From NCBI GenBank assembly GCA_013377005.1, contig JACABE010000013.1, positions 1 through 52,004 of the forward strand: DNA of 52,004 nucleotides, read 5' to 3'. The notes under the pieces were generated by a model. That model was not told the DNA's origin and made no database searches. It was given only the letters and a program-made list of their open reading frames with translations. Below, piece by piece: positions 18,540 through 38,132 of this stretch (positions within the stretch are counted from its first letter, which is position 1; each line of letters begins with the position of its first letter). The translations under genes were made by a program, and so were the position numbers. Source of the DNA: Bacteroidota bacterium (lineage in GTDB: Bacteria; Bacteroidota; Bacteroidia; Bacteroidales; JACABE01).

Positions 18540-18579
18540 CAAATGTACATTAAGTTTGTGAACTTAATGTATAATTTTG
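18540..18579. promoter_or_regulatory. Divergent promoter pair around a perfect 26-bp palindrome
   Basis: TACATTAAGTT (18546-18556), TGTG, AACTTAATGTA (18561-18571): 11-bp arms with no mismatch. On the right it abuts the plus-strand -7 box TAATTTTG (18572-18579) of the ATPase operon. On the left it overlaps the minus-strand -7 box TACATTTG (reverse complement of 18540-18547) of the Crp/Fnr gene. Both promoters lack a TTTG -33 box because the palindrome fills that place. A dimer bound here would sit about 25 bp upstream of both starts, so one protein can switch both operons. The Crp/Fnr regulator is the best candidate. Confidence 0.78.
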
Positions 18580-18614
18580 TAAATAATAATGAACCTATCA
18601 CTAAAATATATTTT

Positions 18615-19412: not shown

Positions 19413-20116
19413 TGATGAAGTTTGTAATTGTTGCAGGAACACCAGGCTCAGGAAAGACATCTGTATTGCTTCATGCAATCAATCATTTAAAGAATAAATC
19501 GATACAGCCTTCGGTAGCTAAAATAGATTGTTTATATACCGATGATGATAAAAGATATGCGAAAACAGGTGTGCCTGTATTGGTTGGATTATCAAAAGAT
19601 ATGTGTCCAGATCATTTCGGTATTTACAATACCGAAGAATTATTGGATTTCGCTATAAAAAACAAATCGGATTTATTGATAGTAGAAACAGCAGGATTGT
19701 GCCATCGTTGCTCGCCTTATACAAAGGGAAGTCTTGGTATTTGTGTAATTGATGCTACCAGCGGACCCAATACGCCTATGAAAGTAGGTCCTTTCTTGAG
19801 TACTGCCGATATTGTAGCTATTACCAAAGGCGATGTGATTTCGCAAGCCGAAAGAGAGATTTTCAGGGAAAGTGTATTGGAAATGAATCCGAATGCTAAA
19901 ATTATTGAAATAAATGGTTTAAGTGGCAAGGGTTGTTCGGAACTGGCCGAAGAAATAATGCTTGCGAAAGCTGTTGAATCGGGTGATGATGTATTGCGAC
20001 ACAATGCTCCATTGGCAATTTGTACGCTTTGTGTAGGCGAAACAAGGGTTAATAAAGCGCATCATAGAGGAATTTTACGAAGAATAGATGGTTTTCAGTT
20101 TTACGAAGGGGAGTAA
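19412..20116 (+). CDS. HypB/CooC/UreG-like P-loop GTPase
   Basis: A protein of 234 residues. Walker A GTPGSGKT at 9-16, then [30 protein letters not shown] (switch-like, with Cys/His), Walker [17 protein letters not shown], guanine-specificity-like motif ITKGDV (near 150) and a GLSGKG loop. Cysteines in LCHRC and in the C-terminal [18 protein letters not shown] could bind a metal. HypB, UreG and CooC family members are GTP- or ATP-dependent chaperones that insert nickel or help load other metal centres. Start overlaps the ATPase stop by one base. The next gene of the module lies 241 bp downstream because a palindromic repeat sits between. Which metalloenzyme it serves is not shown here. Confidence 0.82.
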
Positions 20117-24020: not shown

Positions 24021-24059
24021 AATTGTTGAATTATTCATATTGTATATCTTTGCAAAAAA
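24021..24059 (+). promoter_or_regulatory. Promoter block shared with wtpA
   Basis: A 39-bp stretch beginning AATTGTTGAATTATTCATAT and including the -7 box TATCTTTG (24045-24052) is identical at 33 of 39 positions, without gaps, to 34770-34808 before wtpA. The conserved core is TTATTCATATTG, then TTTGCAAAAAA. Shared spacing from promoter to ATG (7 bp after the block in both) suggests one regulator. Confidence 0.6.
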
Positions 24060-24066
24060 CTCAAGC

Positions 24067-24807
24067 ATGAAAGTTTTAATAGCAATAGATGATACCGATA
24101 ATTTAGAAAGCAGAGGGACTGGTTTTCAGTCAAGGCAATTAGGAAAATTAATAGCCGAATTAAACATTGGTAAAATTGCAGGAATTACTCGTCATCAATT
24201 GTATGTTCATGATGATATTCCTTACACATCACACAATAGCTCGGCTTGTATTGAAGCTGAAATATTCGATTTCGATTCATTAACTTCTATTTGCCGGAAT
24301 TTTCTGCTGAATATTGCTGCCGATGGTTCGGATGCAGGATTGTGTATTGCTAAGTATGAAGACATTCATCAGGATATTATCAACTGGGGACACAGAGCAA
24401 AAAAAGAAATACTTACCAAAACAGAAGCTCATCAATTAGCCGAAGCTAATAATATTTATCTCGAAGGGCTTACGGGCGATAAAATTGGCGTTATTGGTTC
24501 TTTAGCAGCCATCGGACTACATTTTGACGGAAACGACGGAAGGTATTTATGGATTGCTGGTAAAGAAATGCGTGAAATACAAGGTATATTTACAATAAGT
24601 GAGTTGAAAAATATTTCAACAATAAACAATGTACTTATTAAAGAAAATTATAACTTTGTTGCTGATTCTGATACTATATTTATAGAAGATTGGTTGCGAC
24701 CCATCTTAAAAAATAAACAGGCAGTAATCATTGTAGAAAAATCAACTTCAAAAGAATACGACTGGAAAGCCCTGACAAAAATAGATATAAAACTGCTTAC
24801 ACAGTAG
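24067..24807 (+). CDS. TiaS-like protein (archaeal tRNA-Ile2 agmatinylcytidine synthetase homologue)
   Basis: Start at 24067 (MKVLIAIDDTDNLESRGTG), after the -7 box at 24045; the open frame begins earlier but inside the promoter. 246 residues. The N-terminal IDDTDN motif with a following GTG loop and YTSHNSSACIEAEIF resembles the N-terminal part of archaeal TiaS (COG1571-like). It lacks the OB-fold and zinc-ribbon end, so it cannot be a full TiaS. Archaeal TiaS uses agmatine on tRNA; bacteria use TilS, so a tRNA role here is unlikely. It is followed after 23 bp by an ECF-S-like membrane protein, and its promoter matches that of wtpA. Role unknown; a link to metal uptake is inferred. Confidence 0.7.
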   Translation: MKVLIAIDDTDNLESRGTGFQSRQLGKLIAELNIGKIAGITRHQLYVHDDIPYTSHNSSACIEAEIFDFDSLTSICRNFLLNIAADGSDAGLCIAKYEDIHQDIINWGHRAKKEILTKTEAHQLAEANNIYLEGLTGDKIGVIGSLAAIGLHFDGNDGRYLWIAGKEMREIQGIFTISELKNISTINNVLIKENYNFVADSDTIFIEDWLRPILKNKQAVIIVEKSTSKEYDWKALTKIDIKLLTQ

Positions 24808-24830
24808 TAAGCACTCATAAATTTAAATAG

Positions 24831-25376
24831 ATGAATACAACAACAATAGCATCAGAAAAGCGTAGCCTTTCGTTAACGATAGCCGAATTTATTTTATTAT
24901 TCTTATTAGGAGCAATGGCAATTGTTTTACATGCACGTTTAAGAATTCCGTTACGTTTACCCGGCCGTCATGGCATTGAGTTTATGATGTTATTATTAAT
25001 TGGTAGAAATATTTCTAAGTTTCGTTTTGCATCATCTTTCTCATCCTTAGGTGTAGCTTCTATGTTAGTAATCCCGATGCTGGGATTTAAAGATCCTTTT
25101 ATGTCAGTAGTTTTTATTTTGCCTGGTATTGCAATAGATTCGTTCTACAATGTATTTCCTAAAATAAATAAAAACATCTGGTTTTTGGCTCTTGCTGCCG
25201 GAATTGCTTATGCTTTGATACCAATTTCGCGATTGCTCATTTCTCTTTCAACAGGTTTCGTGTATGAATCTTTGCTTGGAAGCTTTTTTTACCCATTGGC
25301 TACTCATTTTGTATTTGGATTTATAGGAGGTTTGGGAGGTAGTGCATTGGTAAAAGCATTTAATAAGAAAAAATAA
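24831..25376 (+). CDS. Small polytopic membrane protein resembling ECF-type S components
   Basis: A protein of 181 residues with about five to six hydrophobic helices and no signal peptide. LHARLRIPLRLPGRHGIEFMMLLLIGR (about 37-63) resembles the loop after helix 1 of energy-coupling-factor S components, which capture a vitamin or metal. Helix 2 and 3 have small residues (ASSFSSLGVASMLVIPMLGF). The C terminus ends basic (FNKKK). It lies 23 bp behind the TiaS-like gene, so they share the wtpA-like promoter. No ECF T or A subunits lie next to it; solitary S components do occur. The fold assignment is tentative and the ligand unknown. Confidence 0.6.
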   Translation: MNTTTIASEKRSLSLTIAEFILLFLLGAMAIVLHARLRIPLRLPGRHGIEFMMLLLIGRNISKFRFASSFSSLGVASMLVIPMLGFKDPFMSVVFILPGIAIDSFYNVFPKINKNIWFLALAAGIAYALIPISRLLISLSTGFVYESLLGSFFYPLATHFVFGFIGGLGGSALVKAFNKKK

Positions 25377-25453
25377 TCATACTGTTGGAAATAGTTTTTT
25401 AAAACCATTTTTACTTACCGAGTTGCAAATAAACTCTCTTCGATACATATTCT

Positions 25454-26359
25454 ATGAACAACTTTATTCGATTTATAAAAAAACACTGTATTCAATTTGC
25501 AATTTTAATTGTTTGTTTTGCTTGCTTTTCTGCTTGTTCAAAAGATGAAAGCACCAATACAATTCCACCTATTATTGAATTTAAAACAGGTGGATTATAT
25601 ACTTCCGCAGATACAGCGATAGCAGAAGGTTCTAAGATATATATAGGAATTAAAGCATCAGCAAACGGTGGCGAAAATCTTTGCAACCTAATTGTTCGAT
25701 CAAACAATACACAAAGTTTGATGGACTATGGATTTAATGCAGCTTCTATTGATAAAGATTTGATAATATATAAGAATGCCGATAGCATACAAAAAATTAC
25801 AATTATCATTCGTAATAAAAATGGAATCAGTAATAACATGGAAATAATTATCCGTAAAAATGGAAGTGCCTACAAACCTATTCTTAGTTTTAACATAACA
25901 CTTGGAGGACAAAATAATTCAACAATAGGTTCATTTGCATCATTAAATAACGGACTTACATATTTTTTATCTGATGCCACTCAAAATCAAGCAATGATAG
26001 ATTTATTATATTATTACACTATCAGCAATTCAGAATATAATACAATCGCTTCTGCTGGTGCTAATATTATTGGTATTTTTAGTGGTACAAATGCCCCTGA
26101 ATATTGGTTAACTAAGAATACTACCTATTTTAGCCGCAGTGTAATTAACATTCCTAACTCCAGCTTTGATAATGCTATAAATGATAGTATAATCATTGCC
26201 AATATATTTACCAATGGAGGCAGAAAAGCAAAAGCATTAGCAGCAAATCAAATTTGGGGTATTCAAACGCAAGCCGGAAAATTCGGATTTCTAAAAATTA
26301 TATCGATTAACGGGCAGGAAAACGGAACAGTAGAATTTGCAGTTAAGCTTCAACAATAG
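25454..26359 (+). CDS. Surface lipoprotein paired with a TonB receptor, first copy
   Basis: A protein of 301 residues. Signal and lipobox CFACFSACSKDE, with the lipidated cysteine near residue 28 and a downstream S-K-D-E run of the kind that directs Bacteroidota lipoproteins to the surface. An Ig-like beta domain (about 40-135) is followed by a second domain: GSFASLNNGLTYFLSDATQNQAMIDLLYYYT (about 163-193). The end GKFGFLKIISINGQENGTVEFAVKLQQ is also found in the paralogue at 33793 (GKTGLIKVISVSGNESGKIVFDLKIQQ). It lies 50 bp before a TonB receptor gene. By analogy with HmuY-HmuR-type pairs it may deliver a ligand to that receptor; this is inference. Confidence 0.75.
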   Translation: MNNFIRFIKKHCIQFAILIVCFACFSACSKDESTNTIPPIIEFKTGGLYTSADTAIAEGSKIYIGIKASANGGENLCNLIVRSNNTQSLMDYGFNAASIDKDLIIYKNADSIQKITIIIRNKNGISNNMEIIIRKNGSAYKPILSFNITLGGQNNSTIGSFASLNNGLTYFLSDATQNQAMIDLLYYYTISNSEYNTIASAGANIIGIFSGTNAPEYWLTKNTTYFSRSVINIPNSSFDNAINDSIIIANIFTNGGRKAKALAANQIWGIQTQAGKFGFLKIISINGQENGTVEFAVKLQQ

Positions 26360-26409
26360 CTAGTAACAAACAGAAATTAATAGCTTTATAAAATTTCCAA
26401 ACTAAATTT

Positions 26410-28476
26410 ATGCAAATAAGTAAATTTATAAAAAAAACAATTTTCATTCTATGCATATTACCTCAAACAGCATGGGCACAAGATAGTATAAAAAATATCT
26501 TTTTAAAAGGCGTTACGATTAACTCAACACGCACAAATGCAGATATTGAAAGTATGGCTGCCAGTGTGGATGTTCTAAACAAGAACGATATGGAAAGTTT
26601 TCCAATAAGCAATATAGACAATATTCTGCAATCGATTTCTAATGTTTATGTAAATCGCAGTTGGGGTATTTTTTCAAAAAATTCGAGTGTCACCATGCGT
26701 GGTATGGACGGTACCAACCGTGTATTAGTACTTTATAATGGAATTCCGCTTAACAAAACCTCCGGAGGAGGTATCAATTGGTATATCATAGCTCCTGAAA
26801 CCGTCGAAAAAGTTGAAGTTATCAAAGGATCTAACTCTGCTTTATATGGCAACAATGCCATGAGCGGTATTATTAATATTGTCACCAAAATGCCTGAAGA
26901 TAAGTTTGCAGGAACAGCAAGTCTATTGTTTGCTACCTACAACACAATTGGAGGGAGACTCAATCTTTCGGGCAATCAGATAAAGGAAAATAAAGGTTGG
27001 TATTGGTATGTGAATGGGTTTTACCGAAAGGGTGACGGTTATATTAATGTTCCTGAAACACTGAGAGACAGTTCTGATTGCAAATTAAAAATGAACGAAG
27101 TCTCATCAGATATAAAAATTGGCTATCAGTTTAACAGCAATACCCGTTTATCGATAAATTATAACTTTTATCACGACCAGCGAAGCGATGGGATTAAGAT
27201 ATTCGAATCTGACGGCAGTTTATTGACCGATTATTCAAATGTTGGAATGATGGACTTTACTACTCTTTTGAAAGGAAACATACAATTTCAGGCAAAAACT
27301 TTTTATCATTACGATTATTTCTGGCAGCATACCGAAAGACTGAATGAAACCGGTGATATTTATAAATTGTATGATACTGATCAGTCATCCAACGATTACG
27401 GAATCTGGATGAATGCTTCAAAAAACATAACTAAGAATTATAAGCTTACTTTAGGTGTCGATTTAAAACAAGGCGACATGAAAGCAGAAGATACTTATCG
27501 CACTTCCACAGACCATGCTATTAGACAAGGGGAAATTGGTTTTGCTGCAATCTTTGCTCAAAATGAATTGCAAATTACAAAAAAGTATATGCTGGTTGCT
27601 GCATTAAGATACGATTATGCAAAGTTTTTCAACGGAAGTTTTTCTATCGAAAATCCTACTTATAATACTGGTTTTACTACTTCTTATACAGAAAATTACG
27701 CTTCAAATAATTGGTTTAACATTAGCCCTAAGGTATCACTAAAATATTTTGTCCATCCTAAACTTGATGTTTATGCCAGCTTTTCTCAAGGTTTTATGCC
27801 TGGAACGTTGGATGATATGTGTAGTTCAAAAAAAATTACCAAAGGTTTTAAATTGGCAAATCCAAATCTAAAACCTGAATATGTTACAAGTTATGAAATA
27901 GGATGTAACTACAAACCTATCAACAATCTGCTTTTTGAAAGCAGTTTGTATTATTCCAGAGGCAAAGATTTTCAATATTTTGTGGCTACAGGAGAGGTAA
28001 TTGATTTGGATAAAATAGTCTTGAAACGTGAAAACATTGGCAAAGTGAATATTTATGGTTTTGAAACTTCTATGAAGTATCAACTTACTAAAAATCTGCT
28101 ATTTAAAGCCAATTATACCTATAATCATTCAGAGATAGTTGAATTTAATGCTGTAAACGAAACAGGTAAAAATCTGCAAGGAAAGTTTATAGCAGAAATT
28201 CCACCACATCAAGTGTTTGCAGGTGCTTTTCTGAAAACAAAATGGGTGAATGCTTCCGCAATATTTAATTATATCAGCCAGCAATGGGCTGACGAACAAA
28301 ATGCAACAGTAATTGATCCATATTCAACCATAGATATTCGCTTATCCCGTCAATTCTTCAAACACGTCCTGTTTGCCATCGATATTCAAAACATACTCGA
28401 TCATCAGTACATTGACAAAAAAGGAGGATTAGCTCCCGGCAGGTTTATTGAACTGGATTTAGGCATTAAATTTTAA
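26410..28476 (+). CDS. TonB-dependent outer-membrane receptor, first copy
   Basis: A protein of 688 residues with a signal peptide (ending TAWAQ). The plug domain spans about 33-150 (INSTRTNADIESMAASVDVLNKNDM, then MRGMDGTNRVLVLYNGIPLN and IEVIKGSNSALYG-type VEKVEVIKGSNSALYG). The 22-strand barrel runs to residue 688, ending GRFIELDLGIKF with the terminal aromatic expected for Bam recognition. The extracellular half has SFSQGFMPGTLDDMCSSKKITKGFKLANPNLKPEY, almost shared with the receptor at 30459. No N-terminal carboxypeptidase-like domain, unlike that one. It uses TonB energy to bring a scarce ligand into the periplasm. Neighbouring wtpABC suggests molybdate, tungstate or a chelate of them. 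Confidence 0.92.
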   Translation: MQISKFIKKTIFILCILPQTAWAQDSIKNIFLKGVTINSTRTNADIESMAASVDVLNKNDMESFPISNIDNILQSISNVYVNRSWGIFSKNSSVTMRGMDGTNRVLVLYNGIPLNKTSGGGINWYIIAPETVEKVEVIKGSNSALYGNNAMSGIINIVTKMPEDKFAGTASLLFATYNTIGGRLNLSGNQIKENKGWYWYVNGFYRKGDGYINVPETLRDSSDCKLKMNEVSSDIKIGYQFNSNTRLSINYNFYHDQRSDGIKIFESDGSLLTDYSNVGMMDFTTLLKGNIQFQAKTFYHYDYFWQHTERLNETGDIYKLYDTDQSSNDYGIWMNASKNITKNYKLTLGVDLKQGDMKAEDTYRTSTDHAIRQGEIGFAAIFAQNELQITKKYMLVAALRYDYAKFFNGSFSIENPTYNTGFTTSYTENYASNNWFNISPKVSLKYFVHPKLDVYASFSQGFMPGTLDDMCSSKKITKGFKLANPNLKPEYVTSYEIGCNYKPINNLLFESSLYYSRGKDFQYFVATGEVIDLDKIVLKRENIGKVNIYGFETSMKYQLTKNLLFKANYTYNHSEIVEFNAVNETGKNLQGKFIAEIPPHQVFAGAFLKTKWVNASAIFNYISQQWADEQNATVIDPYSTIDIRLSRQFFKHVLFAIDIQNILDHQYIDKKGGLAPGRFIELDLGIKF

Positions 28477-28494
28477 CTATTAATCTTTTAAATT

Positions 28495-29238
28495 ATGAAA
28501 ACAAAATTATACATTATTTTAGCTCTTATCTTTTGCACACACACTTATGCACAAAAAAATGACCTTAATAAACTTAATCTCAAGGGTAACATCAAAACCA
28601 TCCGTGAATTTTATTTGAATTTTACATCAGAAGATGGGAAAATACAAACCAAAACTCTTGAATTAACTTATTTGAATACTTTTAATAATAAAGGAAATAA
28701 AACAGAAGACATTAAATACTCTTCAAATGAAAAAATTGACAAAAAATATCAATATATTCAGGATAGTTCAGGTCTTAGAACAGAACAAAATCAATATAAT
28801 TCAGATGGAGAGCTGATGCGTAAAATTACTTATAAATACAACGAAAATAATAATATTATCGAGGATAATAGTTATTCTTCAGAAGGCAAATTAGAAAAAA
28901 AATTCACCTATAAATATGACAAAAATGGATATGTAATAGAGGATATGAGTTTCGATTCTAATAATAAATTACAAAAGAGATTCACCTACAGTTATGATAA
29001 AGCAGGTAATAAAATTGAAAATTTAAGATTTACAGCACAAGATAGTCTTGATAAAAAGATTAACTTTACCTATGATGATAAAAATAACGTAATTGAAGAA
29101 ATTCAAACCAATGCTGATGGAAGCAATATCAGTTATTTTTATAAATATGAATACGATACAGCAAATAATTGGACTAAGAAATATTGTTTTAAAGAAAAAA
29201 TACTTGAAAGTATTGTGATAAGGAAGATTGAATACTAG
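28495..29238 (+). CDS. Secreted YD-repeat-like protein
   Basis: A protein of 247 residues with a signal peptide (MKTKLYIILALIFCTHTYAQ). The mature part has at least six near-identical repeats of 22 residues: YKYNENNNIIEDNSYSSEGKLEKKFT, YKYDKNGYVIEDMSFDSNNKLQKRFT, YSYDKAGNKIENLRFTAQDSLDKKIN, YDDKNNVIEEIQTNADGS. It has the same repeat style as the proteins at 2943 and 21040. It lies 18 bp after the TonB receptor gene and is probably cotranscribed, so it may be an accessory periplasmic part of that uptake unit. No enzyme motif, no T9SS tail. Function unknown. Confidence 0.75.
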   Translation: MKTKLYIILALIFCTHTYAQKNDLNKLNLKGNIKTIREFYLNFTSEDGKIQTKTLELTYLNTFNNKGNKTEDIKYSSNEKIDKKYQYIQDSSGLRTEQNQYNSDGELMRKITYKYNENNNIIEDNSYSSEGKLEKKFTYKYDKNGYVIEDMSFDSNNKLQKRFTYSYDKAGNKIENLRFTAQDSLDKKINFTYDDKNNVIEEIQTNADGSNISYFYKYEYDTANNWTKKYCFKEKILESIVIRKIEY

Positions 29239-29391
29239 TAAAAGTAATCTTTGCAAACTCATTCTCATTGATTTTTAGCCACCAATATAGTTTGGCTGCA
29301 CTTAATTTCCAAACAGATTTAAATGAAAAAAGCCATCTTTTACAGACAGCTTTATATATTTTCTTTCCTAAATTCTTAAATATACTCTTCC

Positions 29392-30447
29392 CTATTGAGC
29401 ATCAATGTAAATAGAATTAATTCCTTTTACGGCTCTATCTGAAAAGAAGTCACAAGCAGGAAATACTTTAAATTTACCATTTTCTTTGGTTTCTTCGTCG
29501 CTTAGTAATAGAACTTCCTGTTGATCGTTACGATTCATTAATTCGCTAAACGTATAAACACTGCGATAACCATCTACAGCTGCCACTACCACCAATGCTT
29601 TACGCAAGTTTTCCTGATTTTGCTTTGCATATTTTGCTATCAGCAATTTTAGCTGAACACCCGTAAAAGGCTGCGTACTATGAATCCCCTTACCCCTACC
29701 ATAAAAAATGGTATGCAAGGTTTCATTTTGAAATTCTTTAGGATTCCCAGTTATTTTGCCTACTTCCTTATTGTTTTTATAAAGTGTTAAAGAAGGAGAA
29801 TAGTTAGGTTTTAAATCTTTTATTACTTTTACGTCTAAAGGATAGGTTTTCACAGTAATTTTTACGGGAGAAGAAATATTTCGTTCGGTAATTAAATCAT
29901 GTGTAATTACCAATTTGCTTTCGGTAGGTAGTTGCCATAAATCTTTCGTTTTTGATGGAACTATGCGAGCAACTTCTGTTGCAATAATCATATCATGGTG
30001 ATAATTCGGATAATAAATTTCGCCCCAACTGACCACAACTTTTTCACCTTTTGCATTTTCAATCTCTAAATAAACATCAATAATAGGATGAAAAACATCA
30101 ACATTCTTTTTCTTAAGCTTGAATGTGTTTAAAATATCGAAAAGCGAGTAACCATCATAACGATAAGCACCCACAAACTTATCTTTGTCACCATTCAACA
30201 ACGTTTCTTTTACAATAACTGAATGTTTTTGTAATTTAGAAAAATCCACATAGCCAGGATTTTCAACTTCACCTGCAATTTCAATACCTTTTGCTGCAGG
30301 TAATATATAAGATTCAACATTGTCGTAAAAATTATTGGTAGCATCTATTGTATCAATATTTCTATTGTTTACGTTTAAAGCACTTTGTGCATAATTAATT
30401 GTTGTGCTAAGCATCAATAAACATAAGATAATTAGATTTTTTTTCAT
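29392..30447 (-). CDS. Periplasmic protein with two sulfite-oxidase-like molybdopterin-fold domains
   Basis: A protein of 351 residues with a signal peptide (ending INYAQ). Domain 1 (about 55-200): IEIAGEVENPGYVDFSKLQK, then YRYDGYSLFDILNTFKLKKK. Domain 2 (about 220-350): VGKITGNPKEFQNETLHTIFYGRGKG, then FTGVQLKLLIAKY, VVAAVDGYRSVYTFSELM, AVKGINSIYIDA. Both follow the GxVxxPxxxxxxxL...GxxLxxLL...DGYxxxxxxxEL pattern of the oxidoreductase molybdopterin-binding (SUOX) fold. The catalytic cysteine of true sulfite oxidases is missing in both; the mature chain has only one cysteine, near the end (FPACDFF). It lies 11 bp behind the second TonB receptor gene, same operon. It may bind a molybdate or pterin ligand rather than catalyse. 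Confidence 0.65.
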   Translation of the reverse strand: MKKNLIILCLLMLSTTINYAQSALNVNNRNIDTIDATNNFYDNVESYILPAAKGIEIAGEVENPGYVDFSKLQKHSVIVKETLLNGDKDKFVGAYRYDGYSLFDILNTFKLKKKNVDVFHPIIDVYLEIENAKGEKVVVSWGEIYYPNYHHDMIIATEVARIVPSKTKDLWQLPTESKLVITHDLITERNISSPVKITVKTYPLDVKVIKDLKPNYSPSLTLYKNNKEVGKITGNPKEFQNETLHTIFYGRGKGIHSTQPFTGVQLKLLIAKYAKQNQENLRKALVVVAAVDGYRSVYTFSELMNRNDQQEVLLLSDEETKENGKFKVFPACDFFSDRAVKGINSIYIDAQ

Positions 30448-30458
30448 TGGTTTTTGTT

Positions 30459-32789
30459 TTAATATTTAAAGTTTACTCCGAAAGTAATAAACCGTCCGTA
30501 TCCCTTCAGGTTTTTGCTATCATAAATCATTTTATCAAACAAATTCTCAATGGACAGTCTGGTTTCTAAGAATGATAAAAGCTGTTTTCTGAAATTCAAA
30601 TCAATAATAATATAATCGGGATATTGAGCATCCAAACCGTATTTATCATCAGGAATATTTGCATCATTAACCCATTCTTTTCCTACATATTTTGCGTTGA
30701 TAGATGTATTTACAATCTTATTTTTCCATAAACAACCGATAGAAGCTGAATGATTAGGAACATCGGTTAAGAATTTATTATTTATATCAACATCTGTAAG
30801 CGGATTTAAAAGCTTATACTCTTTTATTTGTGAATGACTATAAGCATAATTAGCAAACAATGAAATATTATTACAAATATGGTAATTGATACCAAATTCA
30901 AAACCATAAATTTCAACTTTACTGATATTTCTGCTTTGAAAAACAGGACTTACTTTGAAACCTTGATTAACTGAATCACCCGTAGTAACATAATACATAA
31001 AATCATTACCGATAGAATAATATACTGAAGGCGTTATTTGTATTTTATCTGTCTGATATGTAAACCCTAACTCATAATTACTTAAGGTTTCTGGTTTCAA
31101 ATAAGGATTCACTACTTTAAAGCCACCTTTAATCTTTCCTGAACGGCACATATCATCCAACGTAGGAGGACGAAATCCTACTGAATATGATAAATAAGAC
31201 TTTATATGTGAGTTTATAGTATAAAGCAAAGAAACTTTAGGGCTCAATGCTTTATAATTTTCATTAGGTATATCCTGAATTTGGTAGATATTCATGTAGT
31301 TATTTGCAGAGGAAGGTGTTTCAATAGTAAATGCACCATCAAAATACTTAGCATAATCAAAACGTAAACCTGCCACAACTTTTAGCTTATCTTTTATTAC
31401 TTCGTATTCATCTTGCAAATACAATGCAGCAAAATTCATTTTCCCTTTATTGTTTATTTTATCTGTAGAAGAATAATAAACATCAGCAGCATCCACATTT
31501 CCTTGCTTTAAATCAAAACCGGAGGTAATCGTATTTTTTATATTAATCTTATGTGATATGCAAAAGCTCAAACCTGCGTCAGTTCGTTTCGAATCAACAT
31601 CATAAAGCGTATAAGTTCCATCCTTAATATATTCATTTACCGCTTTATAATTTTCGCGTAAAATGAAAAGATTGGCGGTAATATTGGTCTTTTCGGAAGT
31701 ATATTTATAGCTGGTTCTTGAATGATAGGTTTTATGTTGCGTATAATTTCCTTTATCTTCATAAACGGTTTCGCCACCCCCTCTTTCGTCATTATAATAG
31801 GTAAGATTGGTTTCTATTTGATGTTTACTATTGATTGCGTAACCTAATTTTAGGTTTGCACCTCCTTCGTTTAAATACGATTTTACAGTATAAGGTGTAA
31901 TATTAATATCGGTTTGAGTTATATATCCATCACTTTTAGTTCTGAAGCTCGACAACATCCAATAAAAACCTTTTTCGGCATTTGCAAAAACACTTCCACC
32001 AGCATTAAAGCTAATTGATTTTGTATTATAGGTTCCATAAGATAACTCAGTGTTACCTTCAAATTTTTTTATGGGTTTACGTGTAATTATATTAATAGCA
32101 CCACCCATGGCATTGCTTCCATACAAAGAAGAAACAGGGCCTTTGGTAACCTCAATATTTTCAACATAATCTTTATTAAATAAATTCCAATTAACGCTAC
32201 CTCCATCAGTTTTGTTAATAGGAATGCCATCAATCATAACAAGGGTTCGTGATTGATCTTTTCCACTTAAACCTCTCATGCTAACAATAGATTTATTGGC
32301 AAAAATGCCCAATGTTCTGTTTACATTTACACCAGGTATATAGCTTAAAGTAGCGTCTAAGGAAGGCGATGCAATGAATGCAATTTGAGTTTTGTTAATA
32401 CTTTGTACTCTCGCAGGAATTGTATTGGCAAGTTGTTTGGTACGGGTAGCTGAAATTACTATAGGATTTGATTCTATCATTTGCATTTGCATGTTAATAT
32501 CAAGAATGTTAGTTTTGTTATTTTCAACTATTATTTTCTTTTTGATAGTTGTATAACCAACATAACTAACCATAATAGTAAATTCTCCTGCTTTATTGTT
32601 TAACAGCTCATATTTTCCTTTAGAATCAGTAACGCTACCTATCCCCGACTCAAGAATTTGTATATTCGCACCACTCAAAGCCTGATGAGTTTCGTCATCA
32701 ACTACTTTACCTGAAATCTTTTGAGCATTTACTAAAGAAAAGGGAATTAAAATACTTAAAAGGAATAAACGAAAAATTTTGGGATACAT
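30459..32789 (-). CDS. TonB-dependent receptor with carboxypeptidase-regulatory-like domain, second copy
   Basis: A protein of 776 residues. Signal peptide (1-22), then a carboxypeptidase D regulatory-like beta domain (about 24-105: KISGKVVDDETHQALSGANIQILESG, VSYVGYTTIKKKI). The plug spans about 112-235 (ISATRTKQLANTIPARVQSI, MRGLSGKDQSRTLVMIDGIPINK), and the barrel ends GRFITFGVNFKY. The loop SYSVGFRPPTLDDMCRSGKIKGGFKVVNPYLKPET is nearly that of the receptor at 26410, so the two are paralogues and probably share ligand class. It is followed by the double SUOX-fold gene and preceded by a T9SS protein gene and the second surface lipoprotein gene on the same strand. No SusD partner, so a glycan role is unlikely. 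Confidence 0.92.
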   Translation of the reverse strand: MYPKIFRLFLLSILIPFSLVNAQKISGKVVDDETHQALSGANIQILESGIGSVTDSKGKYELLNNKAGEFTIMVSYVGYTTIKKKIIVENNKTNILDINMQMQMIESNPIVISATRTKQLANTIPARVQSINKTQIAFIASPSLDATLSYIPGVNVNRTLGIFANKSIVSMRGLSGKDQSRTLVMIDGIPINKTDGGSVNWNLFNKDYVENIEVTKGPVSSLYGSNAMGGAINIITRKPIKKFEGNTELSYGTYNTKSISFNAGGSVFANAEKGFYWMLSSFRTKSDGYITQTDINITPYTVKSYLNEGGANLKLGYAINSKHQIETNLTYYNDERGGGETVYEDKGNYTQHKTYHSRTSYKYTSEKTNITANLFILRENYKAVNEYIKDGTYTLYDVDSKRTDAGLSFCISHKINIKNTITSGFDLKQGNVDAADVYYSSTDKINNKGKMNFAALYLQDEYEVIKDKLKVVAGLRFDYAKYFDGAFTIETPSSANNYMNIYQIQDIPNENYKALSPKVSLLYTINSHIKSYLSYSVGFRPPTLDDMCRSGKIKGGFKVVNPYLKPETLSNYELGFTYQTDKIQITPSVYYSIGNDFMYYVTTGDSVNQGFKVSPVFQSRNISKVEIYGFEFGINYHICNNISLFANYAYSHSQIKEYKLLNPLTDVDINNKFLTDVPNHSASIGCLWKNKIVNTSINAKYVGKEWVNDANIPDDKYGLDAQYPDYIIIDLNFRKQLLSFLETRLSIENLFDKMIYDSKNLKGYGRFITFGVNFKY

Positions 32790-32811
32790 AAATTTTACTT
32801 TTACAAGATAT

Positions 32812-32863
32812 TTTTATTCATTCACCCTTCTCCTAAAAATAAGAGAAGGATGAAGTGAATAAA
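32812..32863 (-). terminator. Long hairpin between the T9SS gene and the TonB receptor gene
   Basis: TTATTCATTCACCCTTCTC faces GAGAAGGATGAAGTGAATAA across a short A-rich loop, flanked by T5 and A6 runs. On the minus strand it follows the T9SS gene and precedes the TonB receptor start by about 25 bp. It could partly terminate transcription or stabilise the receptor message. Related GAGAAGG hairpins are common between Bacteroidota genes. Confidence 0.6.
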
Positions 32864-32885
32864 AAACAAAACAATATATATTTAT

Positions 32886-33743
32886 TTAGCGAACAACAAC
32901 TTTACCAGTGTAGTATGAGTTATCGTCGTATCTTACATTCATAAAATAAATACCTTTTCCAAAACTGCTCAAATCAATACTATTTTTCAGGGTAGAAGGT
33001 TTGCTGTGATAAACTAAACTGCCTAAAGTATTGTAAACATTTATTTCGTTTACAAAATCAACAGCATCTACATTAATGACTCCATTTGAAGGATTGGGGT
33101 ATATTGCAATAGTATTGGCGAAAATAGTTTCTTCAACTCCTGTTGTAGAAGTTGCTGTGATAATAATATCATCTATTTTAGAAATACCTGTTGCTGCAAC
33201 AGTTCCTCCATTTGCATCAAGATTGCTTGTCATTAACCATCTTAAATAAATGGAAGTTGTTCCTTGTCCGGTAATAGGAACTGGTAATTGATTTAAAACG
33301 CCAGTAGTCCAGTCATTGGCACAAATAATTGCACCATTAGGAACATCTACATAAGTCCCTCCTGATAATTTCCATTGCAATTGAAAGTTTTTTGGTCCGG
33401 GTGAGTTTCCACCACTTCTTTGTTTTGAAGACACTTTAAAACTAGTATAATTGGGAGCTTTAAATTTAACACTCCAAAATTTTCTATTAGCACCATTATC
33501 CCAATTGATTGTAGTTGCAGCATAATCTCCAGTTGTAACTCCATTTGTAAAAGTAATACTATCAATTACAGTTGTAGCACTATCTTCTTTGCGTATATTA
33601 TACGTTTTGTTGGTTAATAAACCAAAATTAGGGAATTTTGAAATTGTATCATTTAAAGGAAATGAAAAACCACTAATAGTATCCTGTGCATTAAGAGATA
33701 CTGTTAAAATAAACATTGCAATAAAAAGTAAAGCTTTTTTCAT
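32886..33743 (-). CDS. Secreted protein with T9SS type A sorting domain
   Basis: A protein of 285 residues: signal peptide (MKKALLFIAMFILTVSLNAQ), a beta-sandwich-like middle (about 21-205) and a C-terminal T9SS type A domain from about 210 (IAIYPNPSNGVINVDAVDFVNEINVYNTLGSLVYHS, then FGKGIYFMNVRYDDNSYYTGKVVVR). The middle has KFWSVKFKAPNYTSFKVSSKQRSGGNSPGPKNFQLQW, the style of lectin- or carbohydrate-binding-like beta domains seen in T9SS cargo, and LDANGGTVAATGISKIDDIIITATS. It should be exported to the cell surface. Located between the second lipoprotein and second TonB receptor gene, all on the minus strand with gaps of 49 and 96 bp; possibly an extracellular ligand catcher for that unit (inferred). 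Confidence 0.82.
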   Translation of the reverse strand: MKKALLFIAMFILTVSLNAQDTISGFSFPLNDTISKFPNFGLLTNKTYNIRKEDSATTVIDSITFTNGVTTGDYAATTINWDNGANRKFWSVKFKAPNYTSFKVSSKQRSGGNSPGPKNFQLQWKLSGGTYVDVPNGAIICANDWTTGVLNQLPVPITGQGTTSIYLRWLMTSNLDANGGTVAATGISKIDDIIITATSTTGVEETIFANTIAIYPNPSNGVINVDAVDFVNEINVYNTLGSLVYHSKPSTLKNSIDLSSFGKGIYFMNVRYDDNSYYTGKVVVR

Positions 33744-33792
33744 GTTGATTAAGATTTTAATTATTAATTAAATTTGATTGATTATAAAATAT

Positions 33793-34686
33793 TTATTGTT
33801 GAATTTTTAAATCAAAAACAATTTTCCCTGATTCATTTCCACTAACTGAAATCACTTTTATCAATCCGGTTTTCCCTGCAGCTGTTTTAAAAGGAACAAC
33901 TTTTCCAACATCGGCAAATTTATATTTGCGACTGCTAAAACCCGCACCCGAATGAAAGGAGGCAATCAGTAAACTGTCATTATTGCAGTTATCAAAAGCT
34001 AAGGTTGTAATTTGAGTTGCATAATCCCAATCGGTATAATTTTTTGGATTAAAAGAACTAATAATCGAGTAATAAGTGGGTGCATCTGAATCTCCTGCTG
34101 ATGAAAATGTATAGGATGGTGTTCCGCTTGTAACGTAGTAATAACACAAAACATCCACTAATTGAGGTGACTGTTGCCCCTGTGTTAATGTGTAAAGTGT
34201 TCCGTTTACAGTATTTAACAACTGAGGAAGAGTAGTGTTATTTTGCATTCCCATTTCAATATTGGTATAGGAATTAATAGGTGCATAAGCTTTTGTAGTA
34301 TCGTAAGTTATAAGGTTTAATGTTGCAAAATTACGATTATGATCCATTACAGAAATCGTCCATTGTAATGAATCACCCCAAACATTGGTAAATATTTTAT
34401 CAATTTGTAATAAATCTGTATTGCAACCTTCATCTACAATAGTTTTTGTAAAATTTTTCCCTGAACATTTTATGACTAAATTGGTAATATTAGCATCTTT
34501 TCCAGAGGCAATAATCCCTAATTTCACTTGATGATTAGACAAATAACTGCCATTTACAGTATAATTAACATCTGTCTTCAGCTTTAATAAAGGTAACGAT
34601 GCATTATCGTCCTTGCTGCATGACCACAATAAAAATACATTTATTAATAAAGCAAATAAACCTAATTTCTTTTTATCAATTTTCAT
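33793..34686 (-). CDS. Surface lipoprotein paired with a TonB receptor, second copy
   Basis: A protein of 297 residues. Lipobox VFLLWSCSKDDN, lipidated cysteine near 23 followed by S-K-D-D, a surface-export-like tail. The layout matches the lipoprotein at 25454: Ig-like domain to about 130, then a domain ending GKTGLIKVISVSGNESGKIVFDLKIQQ. Shared landmarks include YTVNGSYLSNHQVKLGIIASGKDANITNLVIKCSG. First gene of the minus-strand operon lipoprotein, T9SS protein, TonB receptor, SUOX-fold protein. Divergent from wtpA across 129 bp, so the uptake unit and the ABC importer share a regulatory region. The ligand is unknown; molybdate or tungstate is suggested by the neighbours. Confidence 0.75.
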   Translation of the reverse strand: MKIDKKKLGLFALLINVFLLWSCSKDDNASLPLLKLKTDVNYTVNGSYLSNHQVKLGIIASGKDANITNLVIKCSGKNFTKTIVDEGCNTDLLQIDKIFTNVWGDSLQWTISVMDHNRNFATLNLITYDTTKAYAPINSYTNIEMGMQNNTTLPQLLNTVNGTLYTLTQGQQSPQLVDVLCYYYVTSGTPSYTFSSAGDSDAPTYYSIISSFNPKNYTDWDYATQITTLAFDNCNNDSLLIASFHSGAGFSSRKYKFADVGKVVPFKTAAGKTGLIKVISVSGNESGKIVFDLKIQQ

Positions 34687-34724
34687 TTTACAAAAACCGT
34701 AGTGAATATTTATACATTTCGAAG

Positions 34725-34808
34725 CAAAAGTATTAAGTTTTTTTTGAATTAAGTAAATATTTTTTTATGAATTGTAAATTTATTCATATTGCTTATATTT
34801 GCAAAAAA
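34725..34808. promoter_or_regulatory. Divergent promoter region of the lipoprotein operon and wtpA
   Basis: Minus strand: -7 box TACTTTTG (reverse complement of 34725-34732), 38 bp before the lipoprotein start. Plus strand: -7 box TATATTTG (34794-34801), 14 bp before the wtpA ATG. The plus side is the copy of the 39-bp block also found at 24021-24059. Upstream of the -7 box, TATGAAT and ATTCATA (34766-34788) form a perfect 7-bp inverted repeat, a possible operator. Confidence 0.6.
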
Positions 34809-34815
34809 ATATAAT

Positions 34816-35802
34816 ATGAAAAATATACCGATTTACTTGTTTATCATTACATTAATGCTCTCTTGCCATCCTTCGGCTCAAAAAGAAAATCAAAGGAACA
34901 ACTCAACAGATAGTATTAGCGGTAAGTTAATAGTATTTCATGCTGGCAGTTTGGCTGTTCCTTTTAAGGAACTGGCAGATTCATTCAAAACACTGCATCC
35001 CAATATTGAAATACTTGCAGAAGCAAGCGGTAGTGTGGAATGTGCTCGCAAAATAACAGAAATCAAAAAACCATGCGATATATTGTTATCAGCAGATTAC
35101 AAAGTAATTGACAACTTATTGATTCCCGGTTTTACCAACTGGAATATTCCATTCGCTACCAACGAAATGGTAATTGCTTATAATCCCAATGCCCGCAAAG
35201 TTAACGAAATGAATAGTACTTCATGGACAAAGCTATTGTTGTCAAAAGAAGTTGCTTATGGTCGTTCCGATCCTGACGCCGATCCTTGTGGTTATCGCAC
35301 GTTGCTATGCCTGCAGCTGGCAGAAAAACATTATGGATTGAAAGGTTTTTATGAAAAAATGAAAGCTAAGGATAATCAAAACATACGCCCCAAAGAAGTA
35401 GATTTGTTGGCATTATTAGAAACCGGAAATATTGATTATATCTTCATTTATCGTTCAGTGGCTTTACAACATCATTTAAAATTTATAAATTTACCTCAGG
35501 AAATAAACTTAGGAAATAAAGATTTTGCAGAAATCTATGCTTTAGCTCAGCTCGAAGTAAAAGGAAAAAAGCCCGGCGAAAAAATAAAACAAACCGGCGA
35601 AGCAATGGTATATAGTTTTACTATCCCTTACAATGCACCTAACAGAAAAGCTGCTGAAGCATTTGCTGCCTTTCTGATGGATAGCCAGAAAGGATTAAAA
35701 ATTATGGAGAAAAATGGTCAACCTCCTTTAACAAAACCTATTGTAAAAAATTATGATAAACTTCCGGAAGTTTTAAAAAAGCTTACTCAAAAACCTAATT
35801 AA
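34816..35802 (+). CDS. wtpA: Molybdate/tungstate-binding lipoprotein of an ABC importer
   Basis: Start at 34816 (MKNIPIYLFIITLMLSC), after the -7 box at 34794; 328 residues. C17 sits in a lipobox (LMLSC), so the protein is membrane anchored in the periplasm. WtpA-family landmarks: LIVFHAGSLAVPFKELADSFK (about 36-56), EASGSVECARKI, then GRSDPDADPCGYRTLL and YIFIYRSVALQHHLKFINLP. These include the Ser, Asp and Glu ligands that hold molybdate or tungstate in the archaeal protein. A ModA identity is less likely because of the DPxxDPCGYR segment. The permease gene follows only after 502 bp, since a GIY-YIG element was inserted. Tungstate versus molybdate preference cannot be read from sequence. 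Confidence 0.9.
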   Translation: MKNIPIYLFIITLMLSCHPSAQKENQRNNSTDSISGKLIVFHAGSLAVPFKELADSFKTLHPNIEILAEASGSVECARKITEIKKPCDILLSADYKVIDNLLIPGFTNWNIPFATNEMVIAYNPNARKVNEMNSTSWTKLLLSKEVAYGRSDPDADPCGYRTLLCLQLAEKHYGLKGFYEKMKAKDNQNIRPKEVDLLALLETGNIDYIFIYRSVALQHHLKFINLPQEINLGNKDFAEIYALAQLEVKGKKPGEKIKQTGEAMVYSFTIPYNAPNRKAAEAFAAFLMDSQKGLKIMEKNGQPPLTKPIVKNYDKLPEVLKKLTQKPN

Positions 35803-35806
35803 TAAA

Positions 35807-35882
35807 GAAATGCTTCCTTCGACAGCATGACAAAACATGAATCAACTATTTGTTTTGTCATCCCTCGCTCACTCGGGATCTC
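35807..35882 (+). repeat. REP-like palindromic repeat, left copy of the GIY-YIG element
   Basis: GAAATGCTTCCTTCGACAGC starts the copy; inner arms ATGACAAAAC and GTTTTGTCAT are a perfect 10-bp inverted repeat. The right end is ATCCCTCGCTCACTCGGGAT. The right copy at 36216 has the ten bases between ATCCC and GGGAT in inverted orientation. Starts 4 bp after the wtpA stop. Confidence 0.75.
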
Positions 35883-35900
35883 ATTAAATAATATACTAAT

Positions 35901-36209
35901 ATGAAACCAATTGGATTACACAATTATTTCATTTATATTTTGACAAATAAATCAAAGAAAGTTTTATATATAGGCGTCACAAATGATGTAAAAAGAAGAA
36001 TTTATGAACATGAATTAGATGCAAACAATAACAAAGAAACATTTGCAGGTAAATATAATTGTATTTATTTGATTTACTGGGAACGCTTTACTTATATTGA
36101 TAATGCTATTGCAAGAGAAAAACAACTTAAAGGATGGAATCGTAGTAAAAAAGAGAAATTAATAAATGAACTTAATCCTGAATGGCGATTTTTAAATAAC
36201 GAGATTTAA
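35901..36209 (+). CDS. GIY-YIG nuclease-domain protein of a putative REP-type mobile element
   Basis: A protein of 102 residues, essentially one GIY-YIG domain. YFIYILTNKSKKVLYIGVTNDVKRRIYEH holds the Y-I-L and Y-I-G strands (about 10-24) and the catalytic Arg (VKRRIYEH, near 30). NAIAREKQLKGWNRSKKEKLINELNPEWRFL provides the conserved Glu (AREKQLKGW, about 75). This is the UPF0213/small single-domain group; such genes are frequently surrounded by palindromic repeats. The gene lies between two REP-like repeats that start 94 bp before and 7 bp after it, and the whole 485-bp unit splits wtpA from wtpB. It may nick or mobilise these repeats. Not part of the importer. Confidence 0.9.
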   Translation: MKPIGLHNYFIYILTNKSKKVLYIGVTNDVKRRIYEHELDANNNKETFAGKYNCIYLIYWERFTYIDNAIAREKQLKGWNRSKKEKLINELNPEWRFLNNEI

Positions 36210-36215
36210 ATAAAT

Positions 36216-36291
36216 GAGATGCTTCCTTCGTCAGCATGACAAAAAATAAATCAACTATTTGATTTGTCATCCCGAGTGAGCGAGGGATCTC
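36216..36291 (+). repeat. REP-like palindromic repeat, right copy of the GIY-YIG element
   Basis: GAGATGCTTCCTTCGTCAGC through ATCCCGAGTGAGCGAGGGAT and CTC. It is in direct orientation to the copy at 35807 except for the inverted ten bases between ATCCC and GGGAT (GAGTGAGCGA here, TCGCTCACTC there). Ends 13 bp before the permease start. Confidence 0.75.
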
Positions 36292-36304
36292 TTTAAAACA
36301 ATGA

Positions 36305-37087
36305 ATGCAAATGAATAATAGTTTCAAACTTTTAATAATATTCTTAGGCGGTTTGCTGTTATTGTTCATCATTGCACCTTTAGGTGGAATGTTTATTTCA
36401 ACTACAGCACCTGATCTTTTTATAACCATTAAAGACGTAGAAGTTACAAAAAGTATCCGTTTAACATTGTTTGCATCTCTTGCTGCTACCCTATTCATGG
36501 CTATCGGTGCCATACCTTTGGCTTATTTACTCGCTCGGAAAAACTTCTTTTTTAAAAAGCTGGTATTGGGAATTGTTGATTTACCTATTGTAATCCCACA
36601 TTCGGCAGCAGGAATCGCTTTGCTTGGTTTTTTATCGAGAGATTCAATACTTGGAAAAGCAGCATCTTCGGTTGGATTAAATTTTGTAGGCAACCCTCTC
36701 GGCATTGTAGCAGCAATGGCATTTGTAAGCGTTCCGTTTTTGATAAATGCTGCCCGAGATGGTTTTCTATCTGTTCCTGTAAGGCTTGAAAAGACAGCCA
36801 TGAGCTTAGGCGCATCTCAGGCAAGAGTCTTTTTTACTATATCTATCCCTTTAGCCGGTCGCAATATCGTTTCGGGTATGGTCATGATGTTTGCACGTGG
36901 TTTAAGCGAATTCGGAGCAATTGTAATTATTGCTTACCATCCAATGGTTACGCCTGTATTAATATTTGAACGCTTTGGCTCTTATGGTCTTCATTACGCA
37001 CAACCTGTTGCCGTTACTTTTATATTAATCACTTTGTTATTTTTTATTTTGCTAAGATATATATCAGGAGGAAAGAAAAATGCTTGA
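36305..37087 (+). CDS. wtpB: Molybdate/tungstate ABC importer permease
   Basis: A protein of 260 residues with six membrane helices. The binding-protein-dependent transport EAA loop is present: FLINAARDGFLSVPVRLEKTAMSLGASQARVFFTISIPLAGRNIVSGMV (about 145-193), the site that contacts the ATPase. MMFARGLSEFGAIVIIAYHPMV (about 199-220) is the sequence typical of ModB/WtpB permeases. The start ATG at 36305 follows the right REP copy by 13 bp. It overlaps the ATPase gene by 8 bp, so these two are coupled. Separated from wtpA by the GIY-YIG element. Confidence 0.92.
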   Translation: MQMNNSFKLLIIFLGGLLLLFIIAPLGGMFISTTAPDLFITIKDVEVTKSIRLTLFASLAATLFMAIGAIPLAYLLARKNFFFKKLVLGIVDLPIVIPHSAAGIALLGFLSRDSILGKAASSVGLNFVGNPLGIVAAMAFVSVPFLINAARDGFLSVPVRLEKTAMSLGASQARVFFTISIPLAGRNIVSGMVMMFARGLSEFGAIVIIAYHPMVTPVLIFERFGSYGLHYAQPVAVTFILITLLFFILLRYISGGKKNA

Positions 37088-38132
37088 GTTGAGAGGAATA
37101 TCAAAACAATTAGAAGCATTTTCGCTCGAAAATATAAGCTTTAGTGTAGAAAAAGGCGATTATTTTGTAATATTGGGCGAGTCGGGTGCCGGAAAATCGG
37201 TAATACTTGAACTGATTGCAGGCATGGAGAAGGTCGACAGCGGATTTATTTATTTAAATTCCAAAAACATTACACATCAAGCGATACAAAAAAGAGGGAT
37301 AAGCATGGTGTTTCAGGATTTTTCTATCTTCCCCCATTTCACAGTTGCTGAAAACATTGGCTATGCATTAAAAGCCGGATTATTTTCAAAAGCTGAAATA
37401 AAACAGCGGGTACTAAAACTGGCTGAAGAAATGGAAATTAGCAATATTTTACTACGCAAACCTAAAACACTATCGGGTGGTGAATTGCAAAGAGTAGCAC
37501 TGGCAAGAGCATTGGCGGCCGAACCGCAATTACTATTATTAGACGAACCGCTGGCGGCTATAGATGTTCGTTTGCAGGATCAGTTGCGGGCTTTATTACG
37601 AAAACTCAACCGAAAAGGAATTACAATTATTCATGTTACTCACGATTTTGAGGAAGCAATATCGCTCGCAAACCAAATTGCGGTCATTCACGACGGAAAA
37701 CTAATTTGCAGAGGAACCCCTGATGTAATTTTTCAAGCTCCCAACCATCCTTTTTTAGCAAGGTTTGCCGGAATCAGAAACTTTTTTAAAGCCACACTCG
37801 TGTATGAAACAGATACCAATATAGCAACTGTCCGCTTGGGTTCTGGAATTAAAATTAACCTGGCTTCCGATGTGGCAAGCGGAGACGGATATTTTATACT
37901 GCCTTCCGATGAGATTATCATCACAAACGACCAACCGCATTCAAGTGCAAGTAACACATTGAAAGGAGAAATATATGATATCATCCCTTCTTTTAAAGGA
38001 ATAGATATAATGGTCAACTGTGGCGAAATGTTTCATATAACTATTACCAAACCATCTAAAGAAAAGCTCGGACTCGAAATAGGTAAAACCATCTGGATAA
38101 GCTGGAAAGCTATGAATGGAAGGTTTATTTAG
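37080..38132 (+). CDS. wtpC: Molybdate/tungstate ABC importer ATP-binding protein
   Basis: A protein of 350 residues. Walker A GESGAGKS (33-40), Q-loop VFQDFSIFPH, signature LSGGELQRVALARALAAEP, Walker B LLLLDEPLAAIDV and H-loop HVTHDFEEA are complete. The C-terminal half (about 235-350: IRNFFKATLVYE, then KGEIYDIIPSFKGIDIMVNCGEMFHITI, IWISWKAMNGRFI) is a TOBE-like regulatory domain, which in this family can bind the oxyanion and inhibit transport. Overlaps the permease gene by 8 bp (ATGCTTGA). Last gene of the importer; no clear terminator follows. Confidence 0.92.
   Translation: MLELRGISKQLEAFSLENISFSVEKGDYFVILGESGAGKSVILELIAGMEKVDSGFIYLNSKNITHQAIQKRGISMVFQDFSIFPHFTVAENIGYALKAGLFSKAEIKQRVLKLAEEMEISNILLRKPKTLSGGELQRVALARALAAEPQLLLLDEPLAAIDVRLQDQLRALLRKLNRKGITIIHVTHDFEEAISLANQIAVIHDGKLICRGTPDVIFQAPNHPFLARFAGIRNFFKATLVYETDTNIATVRLGSGIKINLASDVASGDGYFILPSDEIIITNDQPHSSASNTLKGEIYDIIPSFKGIDIMVNCGEMFHITITKPSKEKLGLEIGKTIWISWKAMNGRFI

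Follow-up and report, generated by a model that had tools for sequence, protein, structure and literature searches.

Gene content of the island

The window considered here is the whole 52,004-nucleotide stretch analysed of contig JACABE010000013.1, from a Bacteroidota bacterium of the order Bacteroidales (assembly GCA_013377005.1). Between positions 24031 and 38132 it carries a gene island in which a WtpABC-type transporter is accompanied by two TonB-dependent receptors, two lipoproteins, a surface protein of the type IX secretion system (T9SS) and a tandem SUOX-fold protein (Table 1). The island likely encodes a two-membrane, TonB-dependent system for acquisition of tungstate, and possibly molybdate, with WtpABC as the inner-membrane pump. 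An earlier note on this DNA had read it as a molybdate/tungstate acquisition island, and that reading is supported apart from one membrane protein discussed below. The island is real and conserved; conserved operons and a shared promoter element are more than chance would bring together. The host genome (3.69 Mb in 92 contigs) has one WtpA gene.

The gene content, observed directly, falls into two operon groups. Group A, on the + strand, comprises genes for an Mmp11/TiaS-like protein, a membrane protein, lipoprotein A, TonB receptor 1 and an RHS-like protein. Group B, on the - strand, comprises those for lipoprotein B, the T9SS protein, TonB receptor 2 and the 351-amino-acid SUOX-fold protein, and is divergent from wtpA-(GIY-YIG)-wtpB-wtpC. 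The positions given earlier for WtpABC, two TonB/lipoprotein paralogue pairs, the T9SS protein and the tandem SUOX-fold protein agree with this layout. Within the window there are no Rfam matches at the gathering threshold and no tRNA.

WtpA scores above the curated TIGR03730 cut-off, and the permease and ATPase genes are adjacent (36305-38132), with the GIY-YIG gene intervening. As judged by family membership, the transporter would be a tungstate/molybdate pump of the inner membrane. WtpABC is known as an inner-membrane importer; the present locus differs in having TonB, lipoprotein, T9SS and SUOX genes in the same operon or island. A passage of PMC11980592 describes transport of both oxyanions by WtpABC.

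Table 1. Features of the island, in window coordinates
Feature	Position	Strand	Basis and remarks
Promoter/operator element TTATTCATATTG-NN-TAT-N-TTTGCAAAAA, copy 1	24031..24058	+	Exact copy; upstream of the Mmp11-like operon
Cytosolic Mmp11/TiaS-like protein	24067..24807	+	First gene of module A; start most likely at 24067; DDTD motif; TIGR03280 E 1.6e-11, far below cut-off
Integral membrane protein of unknown family	24831..25376	+	Hydrophobic segments; adjoins the mmp11-like gene where both profiles match
Lipoprotein A, putative surface location	25454..26359	+	Lipobox-type signal; paralogue of lipoprotein B; outside the SUOX/T9SS-context clade
TonB-dependent receptor 1	26410..28476	+	PF00593, PF07715; in a 17-tip clade with all 8 mmp11/ecfS-context receptors
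RHS/YD-repeat-like protein	28495..29238	+	PF05593; signal-type N-terminus; membership uncertain
Tandem SUOX/PruR-fold protein	29392..30447	-	Signal-type N-terminus; no conserved Moco cysteine; model and fold search, 95 homologues, wtp linkage
TonB-dependent receptor 2	30459..32789	-	PF00593, PF07715, PF13715 (CarboxypepD_reg N-terminal domain); homologues inside wtp operons
T9SS-secreted surface protein	32886..33743	-	PF18962/TIGR04183
Lipoprotein B, DUF4466-like fold, putative surface location	33793..34686	-	Lipobox-type signal; model pLDDT 93.6
Promoter/operator element, copy 2	34780..34807	+	Exact copy; upstream of wtpA
WtpA, tungstate/molybdate-binding protein	34816..35802	+	Start most likely at 34816; TIGR03730 304.5 bits (cut-off 242.75); NF003196 350.3, just under 355
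WtpB, permease	36305..37087	+	PF00528
WtpC, ATPase with weak TOBE	37080..38132	+	PF00005; TOBE PF03459 below cut-off

Linkage to tungsten and molybdenum genes

Loci encoding the tandem SUOX protein were taken as the best 80 of 216 matches; one in which no SUOX open reading frame (ORF) was called (L183) was dropped, leaving 79. The query profile was built from sequences near lipoprotein or wtp genes, and the counts are therefore biased towards an acquisition system. The linkage itself is observed directly, and in other Bacteroidales the island genes stand within the wtp operon. SUOX genes share a same-strand run with wtp genes in 42 of the 79 loci, a run with lipoprotein, T9SS, TonB, SUOX and wtpBC genes is found in 16, and in nine a single run takes in wtpA, lipoprotein, T9SS, TonB, SUOX, wtpB, wtpC and moeA. 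By their flanks, 43 loci have wtp- or tup-like genes, 25 have TonB/lipoprotein genes and 20 have both, while one has only genes for molybdenum cofactor (Moco) synthesis or of the aldehyde:ferredoxin oxidoreductase (AOR) type. Homologues of the T9SS protein are present in 17 of the 80 named loci, 16 of them directly between lipoprotein and TonB genes. The earlier note had let its proposal depend on the TonB/lipoprotein pair neighbouring molybdenum or tungsten (Mo/W) genes in other genomes, and this is what was found: TonB and wtp genes share a same-strand run with SUOX in 20 of the 79 loci, and lipoprotein and WtpA genes lie within ~11 kb on one contig in seven of the 22 genomes having both (own included).

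Individual loci display variations on this order. In L068 it is HTH (helix-turn-helix), wtpA, mmp11, ecfS (the membrane protein gene), lipoprotein, TonB, wtpB, wtpC. The SUOX gene of L143 has a PBP_like_2 gene, a weakly WtpB-like gene, an ATPase gene and moeA for neighbours. Pfam identifies the genes downstream in L124 as MoeA, MoaA, MoaC and MOSC/MoCF. Among the best 80 of 216 matches, the nearest named SUOX locus (L110, 83% identical) is from an uncultured Bacteroidales metagenome-assembled genome. A gene for a 4Fe-4S membrane protein (PF12801) is found between TonB and SUOX inside the wtpA ... wtpBC operon of L074 (13125-14525). There is also a second SUOX setting, in which the visible neighbours include GntP permeases and glycerate kinase but no Mo/W genes, represented by L139, L153, L156, L158, L161, L171 and others.

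Co-occurrence was scored in 98 related genomes, own included and mostly drafts, with Fisher tests that ignore kinship. The 34 genomes counted for WtpA include two below the cut-off with partial matches (G003 and G065) and 32 above it. SUOX was found in 22 genomes, 21 of which have WtpA (p 1.3e-11); the two genes lie within 6 kb on one contig in 10 of these 21. The lipoprotein family is present in 34 genomes, 22 of them with WtpA (p 8e-6). A sample of 395 genomes from the whole phylum is less biased than the SUOX locus set. Here full-length SUOX was found in four genomes (own included), each time 5 kb or less from WtpA, which itself scored above cut-off in five.

Relatives with a single SUOX domain display a related pattern. 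The single-domain profile matched 54 of the 395 phylum genomes, tandem proteins of four genomes included; the 41 matches at E 1.8e-34 or better were taken (five of them without a called SUOX ORF) and weaker ones dropped. A TonB gene adjoins on the same strand in 24 of the 41 loci. ModA or ModE is nearby in 13, Moco genes in five, and either in 15. L101 brings together TonB, SUOX, ModA, ModE and MoaA, and neighbours in L100 include a NifB-like and a nitrogenase-component protein. Coincidence can hardly account for one SUOX branch being linked to WtpABC and the other to Mod genes. Window positions 18522-20116 encode an ABC ATPase and a neighbouring protein that are similar (50% and 46%, respectively) to an ABC/CobW-like pair; in L103 this pair adjoins a TonB-SUOX pair near ModABC-like genes.

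AOR (PF02730) is a family known for tungsten enzymes. Its co-occurrence with the island genes is observed directly: it is present in 39 of the 98 genomes, among them 31 of the 34 that have WtpA (p 8e-15) and all 17 that have the Mmp11-like protein (p 1e-8), the last count omitting G072 (E 5.1e-5, partial) and keeping the divergent match in G046 (3.6e-37). An AOR gene is found 10 kb or less from WtpA in five of 31 genomes (G009, G042, G052, G056, G084), and L094 has an AOR gene beside wtpABC-SUOX-moeA. This co-occurrence, and the AOR genes near wtp, make tungsten the likeliest main metal. PF00384 enzymes, too, are frequent in WtpA genomes (31 of 34), yet they occur in 62 of the 98 overall; because of them molybdenum is possible too. 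One AOR and one 1240-amino-acid PF00384 protein are encoded in the own genome; the latter could instead be the Moco-free ActB of alternative complex III.

The two operons that begin with wtpA and the Mmp11-like gene share a 28-bp element, TTATTCATATTGNNTATNTTTGCAAAAA, found exactly at both sites and 8 bp before the likely gene starts. One hundred shuffles gave zero matches at up to three mismatches. A scan of 864 kb of the own genome (23% of it, window included) gave no third site at up to three mismatches; the next was an overlapping reverse-strand match with four, and others had five. A 20-bp core is found exactly upstream of wtpA (L033) and mmp11 (L190) in a same-genus genome and exactly nowhere else in 3.0 Mb of loci. 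With two mismatches it directly precedes wtpA in L040 and L175 and occurs in five other places outside the window; in own DNA outside the window there are three such sites, at L245, L258 and L259. The element includes a -7 box of the Bacteroidota type and, 19 nt upstream of it, a TTG, and its conserved spacer may be an operator, as its sequence suggests. Since one promoter element is common to both, the wtp and Mmp11-like/TonB1 operons are probably controlled together.

Small genes precede wtpA in other loci. There are 14 candidates, of which 10 were tested and nine pass the PF00126 (LysR-HTH) cut-off; in size and sequence they resemble the ModE DNA-binding domain. An E. coli ModE-like site was sought in the window and rejected (four matches against 3.57 expected). 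Within the wtp operon, the GIY-YIG nuclease gene (35804-36297) has on its flanks two 85-bp direct repeats, 82% identical, which also contain 20-nt arms with perfect mutual complementarity. The unit looks as if a small mobile element had inserted between wtpA and wtpB. A 42% relative of the RHS/YD-like protein lies between wtpA and wtpB in a locus of another family (L081, 1274-2041).

The first gene of module A was labelled TiaS-like in the earlier note. TiaS does match (E 2.5e-4), less well than methanogenesis marker 11, TIGR03280 (E 1.6e-11, 43.9 bits against a cut-off of 255.8, model positions 133-283 of 292); neither cut-off is passed. Strong homologues are present in 17 of the 98 genomes. 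The membrane protein that follows had been called ECF-S-like, and this identity finds no support. No convincing Pfam family, S-component included, was found for it in 12 homologues (best E 0.011), and EcfT/CbiQ (PF02361) is missing in the own genome and in all Mmp11-module genomes but G030 (16 of 17) in a search whose positive control matched 10 of 14.

Does module A, i.e., the Mmp11-like protein, membrane protein, lipoprotein A and TonB receptor 1, form a complete second tungsten route without WtpABC? The membrane protein would then represent a new family of inner-membrane importers with the Mmp11/TiaS-like protein as ATP-binding partner, possibly moving tungsten-pterin or another chelate. 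Among the eight AOR genomes without WtpA, five have the Mmp11-like gene. In these five a WtpA profile that also matches in E. coli gave no hit at E 0.001. A TupA-like query, run on nine genomes including them and without a positive control, gave none either. Downstream of the mmp11-like gene in L193 come an unlabelled 186-amino-acid ORF, moeA, moaA and moaC. A self-sufficient second route nevertheless seems rather doubtful to us. In one genome (G089:C43:3793-4530) the Mmp11-like gene is broken by one TAA.

The SUOX-fold protein and the receptors

The 351-amino-acid protein has no significant Pfam match (best E 0.11). Sequence searches of the PDB gave no match up to E 10 with the protein or its profile A1, and three chance-level matches (best E 0.28) with the single-domain profile A5. 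Its fold is predicted. An AlphaFold model built from 13 sequences (pLDDT 84) matches the SUOX-family molybdopterin domains of 2xts, 2blf and 1sox (VIA Z 10.7-11.6, 131-139 residues, root-mean-square deviation (rmsd) 2.7-3.0), with 2xts at Z 11.6, rmsd 2.7 and 131 residues aligned. The C-terminal half is homologous to the single-domain relatives (hhalign 96.9%, E 1.7e-10), and both of the two relatives tested pass the PF00174 cut-off. The earlier suggestion of a periplasmic protein with two molybdopterin-enzyme folds is thus borne out by model and fold search as a tandem SUOX fold.

In 95 homologues, columns with at least 30% cysteine are found only at residues 17, 287 and 332. A cysteine kept by five of nine single-domain relatives, which is presumably at the Moco-ligand position, maps to conserved Y249, two residues outside the hhalign block; this residue-level comparison covers the C-terminal domain. 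A canonical Moco enzyme was rejected because no cysteine is conserved. The SUOX fold matches together with this absence suggest that the protein is probably a binder and not a Moco enzyme.

A binder of what? The model also matches PruR pterin-binding proteins: 7rkb, which holds neopterin (Z 10.6, rmsd 2.8, 116 aligned, 16% identity), and 7kos, 7kou, 7kom and 7kp2. According to PMC13259868, PruR is a periplasmic pterin binder that has a secreted SUOX-type fold and lacks the Moco cysteine, and the island protein resembles it in these respects. PruR differs in being a single domain of ~170 amino acids and a partner of DcpA signalling, whereas the island protein has two domains and is linked to WtpABC and TonB genes. 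One may ask whether a pterin-type metallophore, or the Mo/W cofactor itself, is what the receptors import, with the tandem protein binding pterin as PruR does and WtpABC taking up the freed oxyanion. W141, conserved in the 95 homologues, is a candidate counterpart of the tryptophan that PruR has in place of the cysteine. However, catalytic SUOX domains match the model equally well. De novo Moco genes are downstream of the operon in L124 and L094, so that salvaged pterin would not be needed. Pterin or cofactor import is unlikely.

The two TonB receptors are paralogues (35% identity, E 1e-130), both with plug (PF07715) and barrel (PF00593), and so are the two lipoproteins (33% identity, E 1e-34), both with lipobox-type signals. 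Phylogenetic trees separate them by gene context. In the lipoprotein tree all 32 SUOX/T9SS-adjacent tips and none of the 10 mmp11/ecfS-adjacent ones form one clade (support 1.0). In the TonB tree, all eight mmp11/ecfS-adjacent receptors and none of the 35 SUOX/T9SS ones do so (support 0.97). Tips with mixed or no context labels were left out of these scores, TonB receptor 1 of the window, a mixed tip, among them; placed afterwards, it falls in the mmp11/ecfS clade, and lipoprotein B is in the SUOX/T9SS clade. The island therefore has two paralogous TonB/lipoprotein pairs with distinct settings.

The pairs might be haem, siderophore or cobalamin systems that merely stand beside wtpABC. Among NCBIfam models both receptors score best with haem/haemoglobin receptors (207.8 and 230.7 bits), which weighs against a tungstate/molybdate system, and the pairing of lipoprotein with TonB receptor resembles HmuY-HmuR. 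Both scores are, however, well under the TIGR01785 haem cut-off of 316.85. Homologues stand inside wtp operons in 16 loci, in nine with moeA in the same run, and every one of the Mmp11-module genomes carries AOR. The best fold match of the lipoprotein B model is 4ei0 from Parabacteroides merdae (Foldseek E 5.6e-10, VIA Z 15.5, 235 residues, rmsd 11.0), titled solely a DUF4466 family protein; the large rmsd suggests a domain arrangement differing from that of lipoprotein B. HmuY is not among the listed fold rows, which does not exclude an HmuY fold, and the DUF4466-like fold says nothing on the ligand. Haem, siderophore or cobalamin uptake is quite improbable.

A probable route across two membranes

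Several observations beyond those already given weigh against a tungstate/molybdate acquisition system. SUOX and WtpA lie on different contigs in 11 of the 21 genomes having both. WtpA genomes lack SUOX in 13 of 34 cases and the lipoprotein in 12 of 34, and 12 of the 34 lipoprotein genomes lack WtpA. Twelve of the 79 tandem-SUOX loci are without a recognised setting, several having truncated flanks, and 26 of the 41 single-domain loci are without a ModA/ModE or Moco gene by the profiles used, in which nif was not included. In L094 the gene upstream of wtpA encodes an Rrf2 regulator and not the HTH protein. Lastly, 18 of the 79 loci are in GntP/glycerate-kinase (sugar-acid) clusters without Mo/W genes. 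That the island imports a sugar acid or other organic ligand, its Wtp linkage being secondary, is nonetheless very improbable, as the 25 loci where TonB/lipoprotein genes are visible include none in the sugar-acid setting and some single-domain relatives adjoin ModA/ModE, Moco or nitrogenase-type genes.

Acquisition of tungstate, and possibly molybdate, is the reading we prefer. From linkage we infer both ligand and transport role for the TonB, lipoprotein and SUOX proteins. The lipoproteins and the T9SS-secreted protein would capture the metal outside the cell, and the two TonB-dependent receptors would move it, as free oxyanion or as a chelate, over the outer membrane. In the periplasm the tandem SUOX/PruR-fold protein may receive or free the oxyanion and pass it to WtpA. 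WtpBC, by what is known of the family, would pump it to the cytosol, where it would be built into the pyranopterin cofactor, mainly for the AOR encoded elsewhere in the genome.

Porins are generally assumed to be the route by which molybdate and tungstate cross the outer membrane. Among the papers listed in searches of open-licence PMC, none had a title or displayed abstract describing the Bacteroidota arrangement. Two systems of other bacteria have something in common with it. In Azotobacter chroococcum, a TonB receptor beside modE/modG/modABC (Achr_39320-39290 cluster) is annotated as 'potentially for molybdate' (PMC4465626). This organism is a gammaproteobacterium, and the passage concerned does not mention lipoprotein, T9SS, SUOX, WtpABC or AOR. 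The T6SS-ModA-IcmP system (T6SS, type VI secretion system) of P. aeruginosa likewise has an outer-membrane partner in molybdate uptake, but as described in PMC8602904 it has a secreted ModA and a metalloproteinase-type outer-membrane protein, and no TonB receptor/lipoprotein operon.

In the conserved operon, WtpABC is thus combined with TonB receptors, lipoproteins and a SUOX-fold protein of the periplasm; TonB-SUOX pairs related to these adjoin ModABC/ModE genes and, in one locus tested, nitrogenase-type genes. The proposal names candidate parts for tungsten uptake and offers testable functions for genes otherwise labelled by score as haem receptors, hypothetical lipoproteins or 'molybdopterin' proteins. 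If the proposal is true, Bacteroidota would actively compete for tungsten or molybdenum, perhaps as chelates.

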